Source: an uncultured Eubacteriales bacterium (GTDB lineage: Bacteria; Bacillota_A; Clostridia; Christensenellales; Aristaeellaceae). From it: a DNA stretch of 12,766 nucleotides. Positions 3,030 through 9,862 of the stretch are shown piece by piece (the first letter of the stretch is position 1; each line of letters opens with the position of its first letter). Location: contig CACYNZ010000178.1 in NCBI GenBank assembly GCA_902775835.1, positions 1 to 12,766 on the forward strand. The letters are read 5' to 3'. A program made the position numbers and the translations under genes. Below the pieces are notes generated by a model. It made no database searches. It had not been told where the DNA came from and saw only the letters and a list, made by a program, of their open reading frames with translations.

Positions 3030-3115
3030 ATACAAGCCACGTCAGGACGGTGTGACTCTTGGGCAGAACCTAAAATCTAAGAAGGAATCATGTATTGGGG
3101 CTTGAGGAGGTCATT

Positions 3116-4441
3116 ATGAAGAGTGCCAGAATATTACTATGTTTGTTGATGCTTGTCTGCGTGCTTGCCGGATGTGCTGCACAGCCAAATGCAGAAGGTT
3201 CTGTTTCTGTACAGACGCCTGCAGGTTCTGAACAGTTTAACCGCTCATATGCTTCAGATTCCTTTAGGAATATGCTGCAGCAGCATCCTGATATTCAGGA
3301 ATTGATTGAGAAATCGATTGCACAGGCTGCGGTTATCAATCCGGACCGGACGACAAATCCGGTTCAGTCACTTGATGAACTGTATGGTTTCCTCGACTAT
3401 ACCGTAACATGTATGCCGTGGAACATTATGCCTGAGGAACGATACGGCAGTTTTGCGACAAAATGTGATCAGAGTATCCTCTATGTTTACTGGCTTTTGG
3501 ATCAGCCCCTGCAGGAGCTGGAAAACAAAGACCTGTTTTATCCGTCAGTGGAATATCTGGAACCGGTATACCAGTGGCTGACGGAATATAATAATACCTG
3601 GAGAGACTTCCTGGATTCTGAAGAATCGTGGAAGCAGGAATATCTTGATATGCTTTTGAAGGATCCCTCCTGGAATCTGGATAAAGGCTGGTATGAGTCT
3701 CCGGAAAACTGGCATTCTTTCAATGAGTTTTTCTCCAGAAAGCTTTCCGGAGATGCGGCACGGCCCATTGCGGCTCCGGAGGATGATTCGGTTGTGATTT
3801 CGCCGGCGGATTCACTTCCACAGGGCCTCTGGAAGATTGACGATGAGGGATTGTTCTATGCTGATCCTATTCTGAGAGAGGACGGCGTTACGATCAAGGA
3901 CTCCACTTTTATTTCCGTCGAGCAGCTCCTGGGAGAAGAAGGTGCTGAATATGCATCCCTGTTTCACAATGGGTATCTGACTCATACCTATCTGAACTAT
4001 GACGATTACCACAGATATCATTTTCCTGTTTCCGGCACGGTCGAGACAGTGTACACGATTCCATATGCGAATGCGGTGGGCGGTATTGTCTATTGGGATG
4101 AAGAGAGCGGATTGTATGTCCTGGAATCGAATTCCCTTTCCTGGCAGAGCATAGAGACAAGGGGATGCGTGCTTATCAATACCGACTACGGAATGGTTGC
4201 TGTGATCCCGGTTGGAATGGGGCAGGTTTCAAGCATTAATTTTCTGGACAGTGTAAAGCCCGGGACAAAAGTAAAAAAGGGAGACGAGCTGGGCTACTTC
4301 CTGTTTGGAGGTTCAGACTGTGTAATGTTGTTTGAAGGCAGTTCGGGTTTCCAGCTTACCGTTTCGGAAGGAGCCAAAGGAGGCTACTCTGCCGGTTACG
4401 CCCATGTATATTGCAGGGAGGAATATGGCAGGTTTCAATAA
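3116..4441 (+). CDS. Lipoprotein phosphatidylserine-decarboxylase-family enzyme (PSDC + PSD)
   Basis: A 441-aa protein, starting at ATG 3116 with GAGGAGG at 3104-3110. Residues 1-20 form a lipoprotein signal peptide: basic start, hydrophobic core, lipobox LAGC with acylated Cys20. Residues about 70-205 resemble the helical PSDC domain found in front of some PSD domains. The PSD domain follows: NEFFSRKL at 203-210, SPAD with Asp232, DYHRYHFP with His299/His302, and FGGSD with Ser400. In the family, cleavage before this Ser creates a pyruvoyl group, so the Asp/His/Ser set needed for self-cleavage and decarboxylation appears complete. The usual site is LGST; here it is GGSD. Predicted location is the outer face of the membrane, which is odd for a phospholipid biosynthesis enzyme. 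The length and layout also recall PsiD, the PSD-family tryptophan decarboxylase, so a free amino acid could be the substrate. No pssA neighbour is seen. Copies of one decayed gene flank it on both sides. Confidence 0.85.
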   Translation: MKSARILLCLLMLVCVLAGCAAQPNAEGSVSVQTPAGSEQFNRSYASDSFRNMLQQHPDIQELIEKSIAQAAVINPDRTTNPVQSLDELYGFLDYTVTCMPWNIMPEERYGSFATKCDQSILYVYWLLDQPLQELENKDLFYPSVEYLEPVYQWLTEYNNTWRDFLDSEESWKQEYLDMLLKDPSWNLDKGWYESPENWHSFNEFFSRKLSGDAARPIAAPEDDSVVISPADSLPQGLWKIDDEGLFYADPILREDGVTIKDSTFISVEQLLGEEGAEYASLFHNGYLTHTYLNYDDYHRYHFPVSGTVETVYTIPYANAVGGIVYWDEESGLYVLESNSLSWQSIETRGCVLINTDYGMVAVIPVGMGQVSSINFLDSVKPGTKVKKGDELGYFLFGGSDCVMLFEGSSGFQLTVSEGAKGGYSAGYAHVYCREEYGRFQ

Positions 4442-4698: not shown

Positions 4699-4716
4699 GA
4701 GGAGCGTTTGGAACAT

Positions 4717-5217
4717 ATGTATTCATTGGCGAGGATTCTTCTTATATGGCTTCTTTGCCTTTTAAGCGTATTTTTTCATGAGCTGGGCCATGCAATGGGA
4801 TATCGGATTTCCACAGGAAAAGCAAAATGGAAAGTCATTGCGGGATCTGGCCCCAGGATGTTTGGCACGTCGAGATATATCTTCTGCTTGATCCCTGTAG
4901 GCGGTTATTTCATTCCGGATGAAGAAGAAGGAACAAAAAAGGCAAAGATGATAATGCTTGCTGGCGGACCTTGCGTTTCTTTGATTCAGGCCATCTTGTA
5001 TGGCATCCTTCGTTTCTGTATTCCGGAGTTTGTTCAGTCCGGAAGTGGTCTCTAAAGTGGTCTCTATGAAGTCCTGCTTTCGGTATCCGCCTTCCTTTTA
5101 TATTTTAACTTCTTTCAGTTTCTGTTCACTGTCATTCCGATTCGCTACAGGATCATATGCAAGGGGCACGAAAGCGACGGTTTGCAGATCATTCATGTTT
5201 TGAAGAATAAAGTCTGA
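4717..5217 (+). pseudogene. M50-type membrane metalloprotease gene split by a duplication-made stop
   Basis: The frame opens with a hydrophobic segment and the zinc motif FFHELGHAMGY (HExxH), then an IPVGGYF loop and AGGPCVSLI, the order seen in M50/site-2-protease relatives. It stops at TAA 5053-5055. The stop sits at the seam of a 12-bp tandem duplication (5042-5053, 5054-5065). Removing one copy restores an open frame from GSGLYEVLL through a hydrophobic segment to SDGLQIIHVL, ending at TGA 5215. The SDG motif is the expected distal M50 signature, so the intact protein would be about 162 aa. Because 12 is divisible by three, the downstream part is still in frame. Start: ATG 4717 is preferred; TTG 4708 is only 3 nt from GAGGAG (4699-4704) and so less likely. 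Small M50 proteins of this type often accompany peptide or signalling systems, but no partner is evident. Confidence 0.75.
5042..5065 (+). repeat. 12-bp tandem duplication creating a stop codon
   Basis: GAAGTGGTCTCT (5042-5053) is followed directly by AAAGTGGTCTCT (5054-5065), 11 of 12 bases identical. The seam reads TAA in the frame of the M50-type protease gene. Loss of one unit by replication slippage would restore the gene without a frame change. Confidence 0.9.
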
Positions 5218-5470: not shown

Positions 5471-5692
5471 GTGAGTACTGAACTGATACTCTTTACAAGC
5501 GGGGATGTTGCACTGAGTGTGCCAATCACCCCCGAAGAGAATACGGTATGGCTGAGCCAGGCACAGATGGTTGAGTTATATGGAAGAGATGTGTCTGTGA
5601 TCTCCAGGCATATCAATAATGTATTCAAGGAAGGGGAAGTCGAAAAGGAAAGCAATTTGCATTTTTTGCAAATTGCCGGTTCGGACAGGCCA
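5471..5692 (+). pseudogene. RhuM-family N-terminal fragment
   Basis: Starting from GTG 5471, about 74 residues match the N-terminus of RhuM (virulence RhuM family, PF13310): LILFTSGDVALSVPI, NTVWLSQAQMVELYGRD, VISRHINNVFKEGEVEKES and QIAGSDRP. Full RhuM proteins are about 330 aa and continue with a line such as 'vkfYnLDvIisvGYRV'; here that is missing and the sequence changes at about 5693 into another gene. RhuM genes occur on pathogenicity islands and near restriction or toxin-antitoxin loci; their function is not settled. No stop separates it from the next frame, so a RhuM-zinc-ribbon fusion of 157 aa could be made from GTG 5471. Confidence 0.7.
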
Positions 5693-5701
5693 ACTGGAAT
5701 A

Positions 5702-5708
5702 GGGAGGG
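5702..5708 (+). promoter_or_regulatory. Internal ribosome site deciding the start of the zinc-ribbon gene
   Basis: GGGAGGG lies 8 nt before GTG 5717. This internal site supports independent translation of the downstream protein, and hence the view that the RhuM part is an upstream remnant rather than a true domain. Confidence 0.6.
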
Positions 5709-5716
5709 AAAAACAC

Positions 5717-5944
5717 GTGCAATGCCCATATTGCGGAAAGGAAATGCAGAAAGGAATTCTGTCCGGTGATGGACGGTCAAACGTCTGCTGGAAAGCCGGT
5801 GAAAATAAAACAGGCTTCATGGACAGCTTCTTTGGAACGGGAAAACTTACCGCCGTAAAACATACGCTGGCATCATTCAGCATAGAAACGTACTTCTGCG
5901 ATCAGTGCAAAAAAATGATTTTTGACACAGATATTCAGAAATAA
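5717..5944 (+). CDS. Small zinc-ribbon protein, DUF6487-like
   Basis: From GTG 5717 the product is 75 aa, starting VQCPYCGKEMQKG and ending YFCDQCKKMIFDTDIQK. The CPYC (C3/C6) and CDQC (C61/C64) pairs at opposite ends form a zinc ribbon, with a glycine-rich middle. This is the layout of DUF6487 (PF20097-type) proteins, whose function is unknown. Typical members have a W and a hydrophobic stretch between the pairs; here CWKAGEN and TGFMDSFFGTG fill that place. The frame is joined without a stop to the RhuM fragment upstream. A ribosome site at 5702-5708 makes GTG 5717 the probable native start. Confidence 0.65.
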   Translation: MQCPYCGKEMQKGILSGDGRSNVCWKAGENKTGFMDSFFGTGKLTAVKHTLASFSIETYFCDQCKKMIFDTDIQK

Positions 5945-6012
5945 GTTCCGGTTTGAGGGGGATTCCGGCCATATACGCGGGTATCCGGATATGAATACAT
6001 ACCCATGACGCA

Positions 6013-6053
6013 ACCAGACATAACGAAATACCGAGAATTCTGTTATGTCCGGT
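6013..6053. promoter_or_regulatory. 12-bp inverted repeat upstream of the ABC operon
   Basis: ACCAGACATAAC (6013-6024) is mirrored by GTTATGTCCGGT (6042-6053) with one mismatch; the arms are separated by 17 nt. It lies 62 nt before the ATPase start and has no T tract, so it looks more like an operator than a terminator. The XRE-AbrB protein encoded at the end of this operon is the natural candidate to bind it. No clear -35/-10 pair with normal spacing was found nearby. Confidence 0.45.
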
Positions 6054-6115
6054 TGGTGGAAGATCATGCAACCAAGCCCTACAATAATCATATAAATCAT
6101 ATTTTGGAGGTTTGT

Positions 6116-6838
6116 ATGGTGATTGCAGAAGTCCGGGATCTGGTGAAAAAGTATCCTTCATTTGAGCTGAAGAGCGTATCCTTCAGCCTTGAGAGCGGAA
6201 GGATTACAGGCTTTATCGGCAGAAACGGCGCAGGAAAAACAACAACGATCAAGGCCATGCTGAACATGATCCATCCGGATGCCGGAACGATTCGATATTT
6301 TGGCAGGCCTTTCCTGGACAGTGAGGCGGATGTAAAGAAGCGCATCGGCTATTCCACGGGAAGCATGAGCTGGTATCCGAGGAAAAGAATACGGGATATT
6401 GTCGATACTGTAAAAAGGTTCTATGATACATGGGATGAAGCAGCATATAGAAAGTATCGGGATCTCTTTGCGATCGACGAGATGAAAACGCCGCTTGAAC
6501 TGTCTGAAGGGATGAAGGTGAAAGTCAATCTTCTGCTTGCGCTTGCCCACAGGGCCGAGGTGCTGATCCTGGATGAGCCTACAAGCGGCCTTGATCCGTT
6601 TTCCCGCAATGAGCTGCTGGGCGTATTTGCGGAACTTCGGAATCATGGCGTGGCCGTGTTTTTCTCTACCCACATTATTACCGATATAGAAAAGTGCGCG
6701 GATGACATCATCTATATTTCCAAAGGCCGGATTGTCGCGGCCATGCCGAAGACGGATTTCATCAGCCGCTACTGTGAAAACGGAGACAGCCTTGAAGACA
6801 CGATGCTCCGTCTGGAAGGTGGTGCGGTCTATGCGTAA
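6116..6838 (+). CDS. ABC transporter ATP-binding protein (ABC-2 type)
   Basis: A 240-aa ATPase, starting at ATG 6116 with GGAGG about 5 nt upstream; the open frame extending back to 6005 lacks a ribosome site. Walker A is GRNGAGKTT (35-43), the signature is LSEGMKVKV (129-137), Walker B is VLILDEPTSGLD (149-160) and the switch His is H186 in STHI. The Q-loop region reads GYSTGSMSW and lacks the usual Gln. The LSxGMK signature and length fit the subfamily that works with two-to-six-helix ABC-2 permeases (BcrA/YtrB-like), often in antimicrobial peptide or antibiotic resistance. Its last 8 nt overlap the permease gene. The substrate cannot be read from the sequence. Confidence 0.9.
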   Translation: MVIAEVRDLVKKYPSFELKSVSFSLESGRITGFIGRNGAGKTTTIKAMLNMIHPDAGTIRYFGRPFLDSEADVKKRIGYSTGSMSWYPRKRIRDIVDTVKRFYDTWDEAAYRKYRDLFAIDEMKTPLELSEGMKVKVNLLLALAHRAEVLILDEPTSGLDPFSRNELLGVFAELRNHGVAVFFSTHIITDIEKCADDIIYISKGRIVAAMPKTDFISRYCENGDSLEDTMLRLEGGAVYA

Positions 6839-7484
6839 CATACTCCGGAAAGAAATGCGGCTGAGCGCATCGGTGCTTTCATACCTGTTTATTCTGTCTG
6901 CCCTGATGTTTCTGCTGCCCGGTTATCCCATTCTGGTCGGGGCCTTTTTCGTGACACTCGGCATATTTCAGGGGTTTCAGAAAGCCAGGGAAGCAAACGA
7001 CATTGTGTTTTCCGTACTCCTTCCTGTCGCCAAGAAGGATATTGTAAAGGGAAGATACCTGTTTGTCTGCCTGATCGAGGGCTGTGCGCTCCTGCTGATG
7101 GCAGTCATTGTCTGTCTGCGCATGACGGTCTTATCAGATGCCGCTGTATACCGCAGCAATGCTCTGATGAATGCCAATTGCTTTGCGCTGGGTGTGGCGT
7201 TTGTGATCTTCGGTCTGTTCAACTGGATCTTTGTAGGCGGATTCTTCAGGACAGCCTACAGTTTTGGACGTCCCTTTGTGCTCCATATCATAGTCTGCTT
7301 CCTGGTGATCTTTGCGGCGGAAGCGCTGCACCATGTTCCGGGACTGGAAAGGCTGAATGCCTTCGGCACGGATGATATTGCCATGCAGCTGATGCTGCTG
7401 GCGGCAGGAATCCTCATATACTTTGTGACAAGTGTGCTGTCGTGCAGCAGGGCATGCAGAGCGTTTGAAGAAATCGATCTTTGA
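6831..7484 (+). CDS. ABC-2 type permease (ABC2_membrane_5-like)
   Basis: A 217-aa membrane protein starting at ATG 6831, overlapping the ATPase gene by 8 nt, a sign of translational coupling. After MRNILRKEMRL there are about six hydrophobic segments: roughly 14-29, 32-48, 76-97, 116-138, 148-165 and 184-204. The KKDIVKGRYLF stretch after the second segment is typical of PF13346-type permeases that pair with small ABC ATPases. The longer open frame beginning at 6702 lies within the ATPase gene and is not the true start. With the ATPase it would form an exporter or a sensor-type complex; the substrate is unknown. Confidence 0.85.
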   Translation: MRNILRKEMRLSASVLSYLFILSALMFLLPGYPILVGAFFVTLGIFQGFQKAREANDIVFSVLLPVAKKDIVKGRYLFVCLIEGCALLLMAVIVCLRMTVLSDAAVYRSNALMNANCFALGVAFVIFGLFNWIFVGGFFRTAYSFGRPFVLHIIVCFLVIFAAEALHHVPGLERLNAFGTDDIAMQLMLLAAGILIYFVTSVLSCSRACRAFEEIDL

Positions 7485-7497
7485 GGAGAATACGGCA

Positions 7498-7938
7498 ATG
7501 CTGAAAGATAATCTGGTCATGCTGCGGAATCTTCATGGGTATTCGCAGGAGGCAATTGCGGAGAAGATAGGCATTTCCCGGCAGGCGTATGCAAAATGGG
7601 AAACCGGTGCCACGGTTCCTGATGTGGAAAAATGCAGTCTCCTGGCGGAAGTATACGGGACGACGATAGACAGCCTGATCCGAACGGAACCGCTGGAAGG
7701 CGTGGGCATGATTCCGCCCGCGCCAAAGGGAAAGAATATCTGGGGAACCGTTGCGGTGAGTGACAGAGGCCAGATTGTGATTCCCAAGGGTGCGAGAGAT
7801 CTGTTCGGGCTGTCGGGAGGCCGGCGGGTGATTGTTCTGAGTGACGAAAACGGGATTGCCCTGGTACCGGAGGAAACATTCGTGGCGAACATGAAAAGAG
7901 CCATGGAATTGATGGAAAGAAAGGCCGATGAACCATGA
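7498..7938 (+). CDS. XRE helix-turn-helix regulator with C-terminal AbrB/SpoVT domain
   Basis: A 146-aa protein starting at ATG 7498; the ribosome site TTGAGGAG overlaps the stop of the permease gene, so it belongs to the same operon. Residues 2-61 are a Cro/CI helix-turn-helix (LRNLHGYSQEAIAEKIGISR, then QAYAKWETG). Residues 82-128 match a SpoVT-AbrB swapped-hairpin domain (GTVAVSDRGQIVIPKGARD). It thus carries two different DNA-binding folds, of which AbrB domains also dimerise. As the last gene of an ABC operon it is probably the local regulator. Candidate operators are the inverted repeats at 6013-6053 and 8010-8044. This fused architecture is known in Bacillota; the target here is inferred. 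Confidence 0.88.
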   Translation: MLKDNLVMLRNLHGYSQEAIAEKIGISRQAYAKWETGATVPDVEKCSLLAEVYGTTIDSLIRTEPLEGVGMIPPAPKGKNIWGTVAVSDRGQIVIPKGARDLFGLSGGRRVIVLSDENGIALVPEETFVANMKRAMELMERKADEP

Positions 7939-8116: not shown

Positions 8117-8143
8117 CTGCGTAAGGTATTGCTTGTTACGCAG
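8117..8143. promoter_or_regulatory. Inverted-repeat operator of the MerR gene
   Basis: CTGCGTAA (8117-8124) and TTACGCAG (8136-8143) are perfect 8-bp arms separated by 11 nt, 41 nt before the MerR start codon. The GTAA...TTAC type of dyad fits MerR-family operators. A TTGCTT (8129-8134) lies 19 bp before TAGGAT (8154-8159), matching the long spacer of MerR-controlled promoters, though both boxes are poor. Autoregulation is inferred. Confidence 0.5.
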
Positions 8144-8183
8144 CGTCATGTAGTAGGATGCGTGGCGAGAGGAGGTGAAGGCT

Positions 8184-8909
8184 ATGCCAAAATATACGAC
8201 GGGAGAGCTTGCAAAGCTCTGCGGCGTTACGGTCCGTACAGTTCAGTATTATGATACCAGGGGCATCCTGATTCCCAGTGAGCTTTCCGAGGGCGGAAGA
8301 CGGCTGTATTCGGATGGCGATCTGAAGCGCCTGAAGATCATCTGCTTTCTGAGGAACCTGGATCTTTCCATCGACGCTGTTTCCCAGATCCTGAAGGAAG
8401 AGCATCCTGAAAAAGTGATTTCACTGCTGGTGGAACAGCAGGAGCAGGCCCTTATGGATGAAATCTCCGACAAAGAGGAGAAACTGGAAAAACTGCGTGA
8501 ACTGAAAATCGGGCTGAAAGACAAAACAGACTTCTCGCTCGAAACCATCGGTGACATAGCCGTATTCATGGAAGGCAAGAAGAAACTGAAAAAAATGCGC
8601 TGGATGATGATCCTGATCGGAATCCCGGTTTCGGCGCTGCAATGGTTTTCCATCATTTTCTGGATCATCAGGGGCATCTGGTGGCCGTTCCTTGTCTGGG
8701 TGCTGGTGGCGGCTGTCTGGGGCACACTGGTCAGCCGGTACTACTTCAATCATGTGAAATACATCTGCCCGGAATGCCACGAGGTATTCAGGCCCACTCT
8801 GAAGGAAGCTTTCTGGGCGAATCATACCCCCACAGCGCGCAGGCTGACATGCACCATGTGCGGTCACAGGGGCTTCTGTGTGGAGATCTGGGGAGGTGAC
8901 GGGGAATGA
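8184..8909 (+). CDS. Membrane-anchored MerR regulator with C-terminal zinc ribbon
   Basis: A 241-aa protein, starting at ATG 8184 with AGGAGGTGA at 8170-8178. Residues 3-70 are a classic MerR winged helix (YTTGELAKLCGVTVRTVQYY, then GGRRLYSDGDLKRL). Residues about 75-115 form a charged coiled coil (dimer helix). Two hydrophobic segments follow at about 139-161 and 165-186, making a short hairpin. The C-terminus has CPEC (C195/C198) and CTMC (C223/C226), a zinc ribbon that also holds H199, H214, H228 and C232. By topology, the DNA-binding head and the zinc ribbon both face the cytoplasm with the hairpin in the membrane. The stop overlaps by 4 nt the start of a YhfC-type intramembrane protease, an intimate coupling. 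A dyad at 8117-8143 suggests autoregulation. The signal sensed is unknown; metal, redox or membrane stress are possible. Confidence 0.88.
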   Translation: MPKYTTGELAKLCGVTVRTVQYYDTRGILIPSELSEGGRRLYSDGDLKRLKIICFLRNLDLSIDAVSQILKEEHPEKVISLLVEQQEQALMDEISDKEEKLEKLRELKIGLKDKTDFSLETIGDIAVFMEGKKKLKKMRWMMILIGIPVSALQWFSIIFWIIRGIWWPFLVWVLVAAVWGTLVSRYYFNHVKYICPECHEVFRPTLKEAFWANHTPTARRLTCTMCGHRGFCVEIWGGDGE

Positions 8910-9748
8910 CGGAGTTTGAGAAGATTGTCATTGGCCGAGACAGCGTGCCGGCGCTGGCCGTGACCGTCCTTCTGATGATCGCAGTTCCTGTCATATTCTT
9001 CATTCTGTGGCGCGGGAGGCATAAAGCGCAGACGAAGCTCAGCTGGCTTATAGCCGGTGCGGTGGGATTTGTTGTCTCGGCCCGGGTACTGGAGCTCGGT
9101 ATACATTATTTCTGTATCGTTATGGATAATCCCGTTTCCAGATTCATTCAGGGAAATCATGCCGCATTCGTCCTGTACGGGGTCACCATGGCAGGTGTTT
9201 TCGAAGAGTGCGGACGGCATATCATTCTGAAATACGTCATGAAAAAGAACCGCACCCGCGAAAATGCGGTCCTGTATGGAATCGGTCACGGCGGAATCGA
9301 GATCCTGGCAGTCCTGCTGCCTTCGATGATTCTCTTTCTTGTCATTGCGGTGCTGTTTTCCACGGGAGACAGGGAAAACGCGCTCAGAACCCTGAAGATC
9401 ACGGAAGATACCGCGGCATCTGCCCTTCCATCTGTTCAGGCGGCTGCTTCGTTTGGCTGGGGCATGATGGCAATGAATGTCGTGGAGCGCGTATTTGCGA
9501 TGCTGCTCCATATCGGGCTGACCGTCATCGTATACTGCGGCATCGTGCAGGGGAGGAAGACGTGCCTGCCGTTGGCAGTTGTCCTGCATATGCTGATGGA
9601 TACGTTCCCGGCAATGTATCAGAGAGGCCTGGTGCCGCTGTGGGCAGTGGAGGTATGGACCGGTGTCTGGACATGCATTGTTGCATGCATTGCCGTGAAG
9701 CTGTACCGGCAGATGGAAGAAACTTCTCCGGCCGATACCGTTTCATAA
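8906..9748 (+). CDS. YhfC-family putative intramembrane metalloprotease
   Basis: A 280-aa multi-pass protein beginning at ATG 8906, in the ATGA overlap with the MerR gene. It matches the YhfC family (PF10086, related to CPBP/CAAX-type glutamic proteases). Motif one is FEECGR (E100, E101, R104). Motif two is GIGHGGIE (H128, E132). A third conserved stretch is VERVFAMLLH (E194, H202), and LHMLMD (H228, D232) completes the polar set. Seven or eight hydrophobic segments are visible (about 14-35, 46-70, 86-98, 136-151, 181-190, 197-213, 221-231, 244-264). All expected catalytic residues are present. Family members are annotated as peptidases from motifs; biochemical proof is scarce. The natural candidate substrate here is the membrane-anchored regulator made from the same transcript. 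Confidence 0.85.
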   Translation: MTEFEKIVIGRDSVPALAVTVLLMIAVPVIFFILWRGRHKAQTKLSWLIAGAVGFVVSARVLELGIHYFCIVMDNPVSRFIQGNHAAFVLYGVTMAGVFEECGRHIILKYVMKKNRTRENAVLYGIGHGGIEILAVLLPSMILFLVIAVLFSTGDRENALRTLKITEDTAASALPSVQAAASFGWGMMAMNVVERVFAMLLHIGLTVIVYCGIVQGRKTCLPLAVVLHMLMDTFPAMYQRGLVPLWAVEVWTGVWTCIVACIAVKLYRQMEETSPADTVS

Positions 9749-9819: not shown

Positions 9820-9862
9820 GCTCCTTGACCTGTATGCATTTGCAGGTGAAGGAGCTTTTTTT
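9820..9862 (+). terminator. Terminator of the MerR/YhfC operon
   Basis: GCTCCTTGACCTG (9820-9832) pairs with CAGGTGAAGGAGC (9843-9855) over 12 of 13 positions, followed by seven Ts (9856-9862). It lies 72 nt after the YhfC stop. Confidence 0.9.

Follow-up and report, generated by a model that had tools for sequence, protein, structure and literature searches.

In the window, the 12,766-nucleotide stretch of DNA analysed here, a MerR-family regulator gene and a YhfC-family membrane protein gene probably form a self-contained regulator-effector cassette, in which a membrane-anchored MerR would activate its own operon and hence YhfC. Sequence comparison brings out the recurrent pairing of the two genes, a conserved promoter-operator nearly restricted to the cassette's own promoter, the integrity of the YhfC motifs and the likeness of the YhfC fold to a known superfamily. 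Described here are a MerR protein with a predicted membrane hairpin and a zinc ribbon, its conserved self-directed promoter, and the exchange of its YhfC partner for a CPBP protein. The features of the cassette and its control elements given below lie on the forward strand.

The MerR gene (8184..8909, 241 aa, PF13411 E 2.8e-20) appears in the open reading frame list with a GTG start at 8175; the ATG at 8184 is used instead, because the ribosome-binding site AGGAGG at 8170..8175 fits the ATG. The protein consists of several parts: a helix-turn-helix head (residues 4-72, 8193..8399), a long helix in the structure model that corresponds to the usual MerR dimer coiled coil (residues 75-111, 8406..8516), a predicted membrane hairpin (residues about 139-184, 8598..8735), and a C-terminal zinc ribbon, YxCPxCH...HTPxxRxLxCxxC...CxE, defined by invariant alignment columns (8760..8891), with its cysteines at C195/C198 and C223/C226. 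The winged helix-turn-helix head is confirmed by the PF13411 match, and its model resembles MerR structures. Hydropathy and sequence place the hairpin within a hydrophobic stretch from about 139 to 188, readable as a pair of segments joined by a short RGIWWP turn, where the model has helices at 132-163 and 167-188; both ends are predicted to be cytosolic, with a very short outer turn. The model (pLDDT 72, pTM 0.38) is weak in the hairpin and ribbon, and therefore no fold is assigned to the ribbon; no Pfam model matches this C-terminal half. The architecture proposed in the initial annotation (head, coiled coil, two membrane segments, CxxC/CxxC ribbon) is thus borne out by Pfam, hydropathy and model, with the membrane segments as predictions. 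Among the best 80 of 586 loci, the closest MerR locus, L001, labelled Christensenella sp., has 90% identity. A viral scan returned a single match, over 66 residues. Staphylococcus phage record OR844999.1 holds a full-length MerR relative at 15557-16261, with 31.5% identity.

The YhfC gene (8906..9748, 280 aa) matches PF10086 with E 1.6e-45, at 155.8 bits vs a curated cut-off of 24.2. Its start at 8906 overlaps the MerR stop, which ends at 8909, by the 4 nt ATGA, exactly as first annotated. The motifs E100, E101, R104 (9203..9217), H128, E132 (9287..9301), H202 (9509..9511) and H228, D232 (9587..9601) are located in a 55-sequence alignment, widened by an extra protein search and reaching down to 28% identity; E100, E101, H128, E132, H202 and H228 are invariant, and R104 and D232 are at least 90% conserved, in agreement with the earlier claim of an intact motif set. 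The predicted membrane fold is common to the CPBP/APH-1 superfamily, with APH-1 and TMEM147 as the nearest folds and APH-1 closer than Rce1; a sequence search for solved relatives with E up to 1 found none. Passages of a paper mentioning one YhfC describe the function as little known (PMC13096917). YhfC would probably act on a membrane peptide or protein, by processing or disabling it; a role in defence against membrane-active peptides is one example, put forward by analogy.

Upstream of the MerR gene, a -35 element TTGCTT (8129..8134), conserved across the aligned upstream regions, is separated by a 19-bp spacer from a -10 element TAGGAT (8154..8159). Inside this spacer lies the probable MerR operator, TTACGCAGCGTCA with the palindrome KACGCNGCGTMA (8136..8148), exact in 67 of 71 upstream regions. 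These regions are the window and 70 loci, the close ones taken from the best 80 of 586, after exclusion of nine loci with a start-codon pattern mismatch and one with less than 80 nt of upstream DNA. MerR promoters are known for an operator dyad between -35 and -10 elements 19-20 bp apart, and the window shows this layout. Farther upstream, the half-site CTGCGTAA (8117..8124) keeps TGCGT at 90% or more per position across the 71 regions, and the alignment consensus reads TGCGTMAGG-TATTGCTTG-TKACGCNGCGTCATG-TARRAT. The dyad initially annotated, CTGCGTAA-N11-TTACGCAG, is present at 8117-8143, but it is exact in only 21 of the 71 regions; its left arm is the upstream half-site, paired with the left arm of the better conserved 8136-8148 palindrome. 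A simple promoter scan of the window did not list the MerR promoter. At the other end, an intrinsic terminator (9820..9862) closes the gene pair, as had been proposed: a 14-pair stem at 9820-9855 followed by T7 to 9862, starting 72 nt past the YhfC stop, with a fold z of -3.9 and 1 of 200 shuffles as good. A simple terminator scan with a loop limit of 8 missed this stem, and its yield was no higher than in shuffles.

The window also holds other genes. Upstream of the MerR-YhfC pair, 6005-7938 carries ABC transporter genes and an HTH_3 plus MazE-like regulator; homologues of this transporter occur near L001, in a different place and orientation. A phosphatidylserine decarboxylase domain (3095-4441, PF02666, E 4.4e-40) follows an apparent lipoprotein signal, possibly as an exported form. 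A short Peptidase_M50 (site-2 protease family) frame at 4708-5055 (115 aa, E 4e-10) is probably truncated, the frame at 5471-5944 has a DUF6487 domain (residues 85-154) fused in frame to another N-terminal stretch, and a frame at 1295-1813, whose start is weakly PLD-like and which contains zinc-ribbon fragments, may be what is left of a longer gene.

Outside the regulator's own promoter, the promoter-operator pattern is hardly found. Across 40 genomes, the exact pattern occurs at 31 sites in 30 genomes, with 0 in the reversed control; in the remaining 10, the own operators deviate from the exact pattern or are unmatched. Thirty exact sites were inspected: a MerR gene adjoins 29 of them, being a different MerR in one case (G315), and the 30th (G313) precedes a decayed merR-yhfC remnant. 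With up to two mismatches allowed, 20 genomes yield 27 sites and 0 control matches. By coordinates, with not every site inspected, 21 of these fit the regulator's own operons; among the other six, three stand beside other MerR genes (G315; G004; G005:C65) and one at a merR-yhfC remnant, the last two being G298:C29 and G005:C54. Because the pattern includes the -35 and -10 letters, operators set in a different kind of promoter would escape it. As far as these sites show, the MerR circuit would act mainly on its own operon, and the near-restriction of the pattern to that promoter therefore makes YhfC the likely output. The same confinement weighs against the initial proposal, in which YhfC cleaves the MerR hairpin to release the DNA-binding head: once free, such a head would mainly activate the operon that encodes it.

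The pairing recurs in other genomes, so that uniqueness to this genome, which the initial annotation had named as a refutation, is not what is seen. In a MerR locus scan with one genome per species, the best 80 of 586 confirmed loci were kept (76-90% MerR identity), a sample biased to close relatives and, by label, mostly Clostridia from ruminant and other guts. L066 and L068, whose contigs end 302 and 1 nt past the gene, are left out of the partner count. In the 78 close loci so counted, YhfC adjoins MerR in 66, a CPBP protein replaces it in 7 and neither partner is present in 5 (L045, L056, L060, L061, L064), which gives YhfC or CPBP in 73 of 78. The CPBP assignment is confirmed by PF02517 for L033 and L078 and otherwise by tblastn to L033 (67-82% identity). 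For 57 of the 66 YhfC loci, the 4-nt overlap is where the longest YhfC frame begins. Among 402 flanking ORFs, chosen mechanically from 81 loci including the window, shared clusters span at most 6 loci and no further constant partner is found; with the flanks mostly unshared, the MerR-YhfC pair is therefore a conserved unit.

The exchange of YhfC for CPBP suggests that the two do similar work, and the presence of one or the other in 73 of 78 loci, more selective than expected of an arbitrary effector, points to a possible physical tie to the hairpin-ribbon part. A partner tree built by a quick method, in which row L069 is only 42% filled, has three YhfC/CPBP changes; its well-supported branches force only one, which leaves repeated swapping unproven. 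Whatever the partner, the consensus of the hairpin hardly changes, in a comparison of low power among close relatives (65 of 80 loci usable, 15 dropped for a missing anchor motif, with the 'none' class including L066, whose partner is off the contig); this constancy speaks neither strongly for nor against hairpin-partner contact. As separate observations, G002 holds two MerR-YhfC units (L013, L210) with YhfC proteins about 32% identical and the same operator kind at each, and at L058 a genome with a Spirochaetes label contains the pair, its MerR being 78% identical, through transfer or mis-binning.

In a class-level sample, the hairpin-ribbon profile is found in 39 of 291 genomes, on MerR, on XRE-type proteins of about 201-208 aa (HTH_3 confirmed for L137), or alone, and YhfC in 45 of 291. 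The two occur together in 8 genomes vs about 6 expected by chance, so that no whole-genome ribbon-YhfC link is found across the 291; in 4 of these 8 (G001, G092, G142, G248) they adjoin. That the MerR and YhfC genes merely travel together, with no functional link, would agree with this near-chance co-occurrence and with the 5 of 78 close loci (from the best 80 of 586) having neither partner type. It is nevertheless very improbable, given that ribbon and YhfC are neighbours in half of the shared genomes, that the pairing persists as the flanks change, and that both regulator classes, MerR and XRE, pair with YhfC.

The association is not obligatory on either side. In the class sample, 10 MerR-ribbon loci comprise three with YhfC next, two with ABC genes and five with neither, and at 20 other ribbon loci, whose neighbours were read by eye rather than scanned, YhfC stands next only at L097. 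An XRE-type hairpin-ribbon regulator lies beside YhfC in two genomes, G092 and G401. From the YhfC side, a ribbon neighbour is present at 4 of 41 loci in one set and 8 of 43 in another, overlapping set, the latter partly picked by likeness to the YhfC of L013 or from G001's order; in both sets most YhfC genes lack one. A Bacilli sample has the ribbon profile in 13 of 200 genomes (the weakest match, G504, being doubtful) and YhfC in 19 of 200, with none in common, and several Bacilli ribbon-MerR genes come after a hydrolase-like gene. Four more distant MerR relatives precede ABC transporter genes: by Pfam, L082 has PLDc_N, ABC ATPase and permease genes 3' of MerR and L083 an ABC ATPase and permease, while L087 and L088 resemble them by reading. 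The ribbon regulator is thus not always accompanied by YhfC, as seen in genomes whose search, for YhfC among the proteases, gave no match, and at the ABC-gene loci. Two other YhfC settings were noted: overlapping YhfC, SdpR-type autorepressor and DUF1648 genes on Ruminococcus albus plasmid pRUMAL02 (L272 2983-4790), and a small lipoprotein-like gene preceded by YhfC at L141, L144, L148, L153, L155, L156 and L159.

The operator core extends to some of these relatives. It lies 5' of the ABC-partnered L082 and L088 and of L093 and L094; with up to one mismatch it is not found upstream of L083, L084, L091, L092 and L099, and it is absent before the XRE-YhfC pair L137. In the reordered ribbon-YhfC-MerR operons L120 and L122, MerR is the third gene and the operator element precedes the first, so that a change of gene order leaves the element at the promoter. 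These two gene groups encode a stand-alone hairpin-ribbon protein, YhfC and a MerR-hairpin-ribbon protein. Among 14 distant relatives, a 19-bp spacer look-alike occurs in 12, also before core-less loci, and a spacer palindrome of at least 4 pairs in 9; both counts are without a shuffled control and are given little weight.

For the cassette, we infer anchoring, topology, binding, activation, signal, and YhfC activity and substrate along the following lines. A MerR dimer would be held in the membrane by its hairpin, exposing head and zinc ribbon to the cytosol, and at its own promoter would bind the palindrome within the 19-bp spacer. The hairpin-ribbon part may read a membrane-linked signal, upon which MerR would activate transcription in the manner of classical MerR proteins. 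The output would be its own operon and with it YhfC, a membrane protein of the APH-1/CPBP superfamily. YhfC, CPBP and ABC transporter genes replace one another downstream, as expected of an output, and this partner list, together with the SdpR group for YhfC, resembles envelope-defence functions by analogy.

A membrane-predicted regulator adjoining a candidate protease gene is also a candidate for regulated intramembrane proteolysis, the anchoring being predicted only. Release of the head by YhfC, which the zinc ribbon may gate as the initial annotation also proposed, would suit the tight gene overlap, the intact motif set, the YhfC or CPBP partner in 73 of 78 loci (best 80 of 586), the XRE-hairpin-ribbon regulators adjoining YhfC in two genomes, and a conserved proline and glutamine in TM1, residues able to loosen a helix. 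The initial claim is not supported, however: the pattern stays at the own promoter, ribbon regulators also turn up in genomes that gave no YhfC match and ahead of ABC transporter genes, and the hairpin shows no visible variation with partner, in the low-power comparison above. Moreover, the TM1 P/Q pair is kept in the ABC-partnered L082 and not fully in L083, and the YhfC fold is nearer APH-1 than Rce1. Judged from sequence, cleavage by YhfC would be compatible with all four of the former counter-points; release is nonetheless unlikely. An equally unlikely course is negative feedback, in which the output YhfC also binds or cuts the hairpin and shuts the switch off, so that activation needs no release. 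This would reconcile the selective choice of partner with the presence of regulators in genomes in which no YhfC was detected, and the nearest folds, APH-1 and TMEM147, have a funnel that takes up part of another membrane protein, as passages of PMC7505659 describe; the lack of visible covariation between hairpin and partner argues against it. Somewhat less doubtful, though still unlikely, is the idea that the hairpin-ribbon is a portable docking part, on a MerR or XRE head, for APH-1/CPBP-fold proteins, the partner holding or cutting the hairpin and thereby setting the switch. If so, a relative of APH-1, the gamma-secretase subunit, would lie at the heart of a one-component circuit in bacteria.

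In conclusion, the probably self-regulated cassette offers a way towards YhfC, a protein of little-known function found in 45 of 291 genomes sampled from one class and 19 of 200 from another: a paired regulator with a defined operator is a handle for finding the YhfC inducer, and hence YhfC's job. In the passages and abstracts of the open-licence papers searched, no description of a MerR/YhfC circuit was found, consistent within that literature with the initial annotation.

Compared with known systems, the classical MerR proteins (MtaN, TipAL, BmrR, CueR) have a soluble ligand domain or metal loop, whereas here a predicted membrane hairpin and zinc ribbon take that place. The DNA-binding fold of ToxR and CadC differs from the MerR head, and the ribbon of the window MerR, in contrast to these proteins, is probably cytosolic. 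ToxR and CadC likewise have a DNA-binding head tethered to the membrane, according to passages of PMC10269533, the tether here being predicted; in the text available from that paper, MerR matches only an author name in the references. PrsW-RsiW likewise links a membrane-anchored regulator to a CPBP-related membrane protease; its target is an anti-sigma factor, whereas cleavage of MerR is hypothetical and the regulator build is also found without YhfC. APH-1 of gamma-secretase and TMEM147 are subunits of complexes; in YhfC, none of the E/E/R, H/E, H and H/D residues is lost. The partner swapped in at 7 of 78 loci (from the best 80 of 586) belongs to the CPBP/Abi (CAAX-type) proteins, which have been tied to self-immunity against bacteriocins. 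SdpR-SdpI is an autoregulated membrane-linked switch of two proteins with an ArsR-type head, in contrast to the single MerR chain of the window, and YhfC itself lies in an SdpR-type gene group in R. albus.
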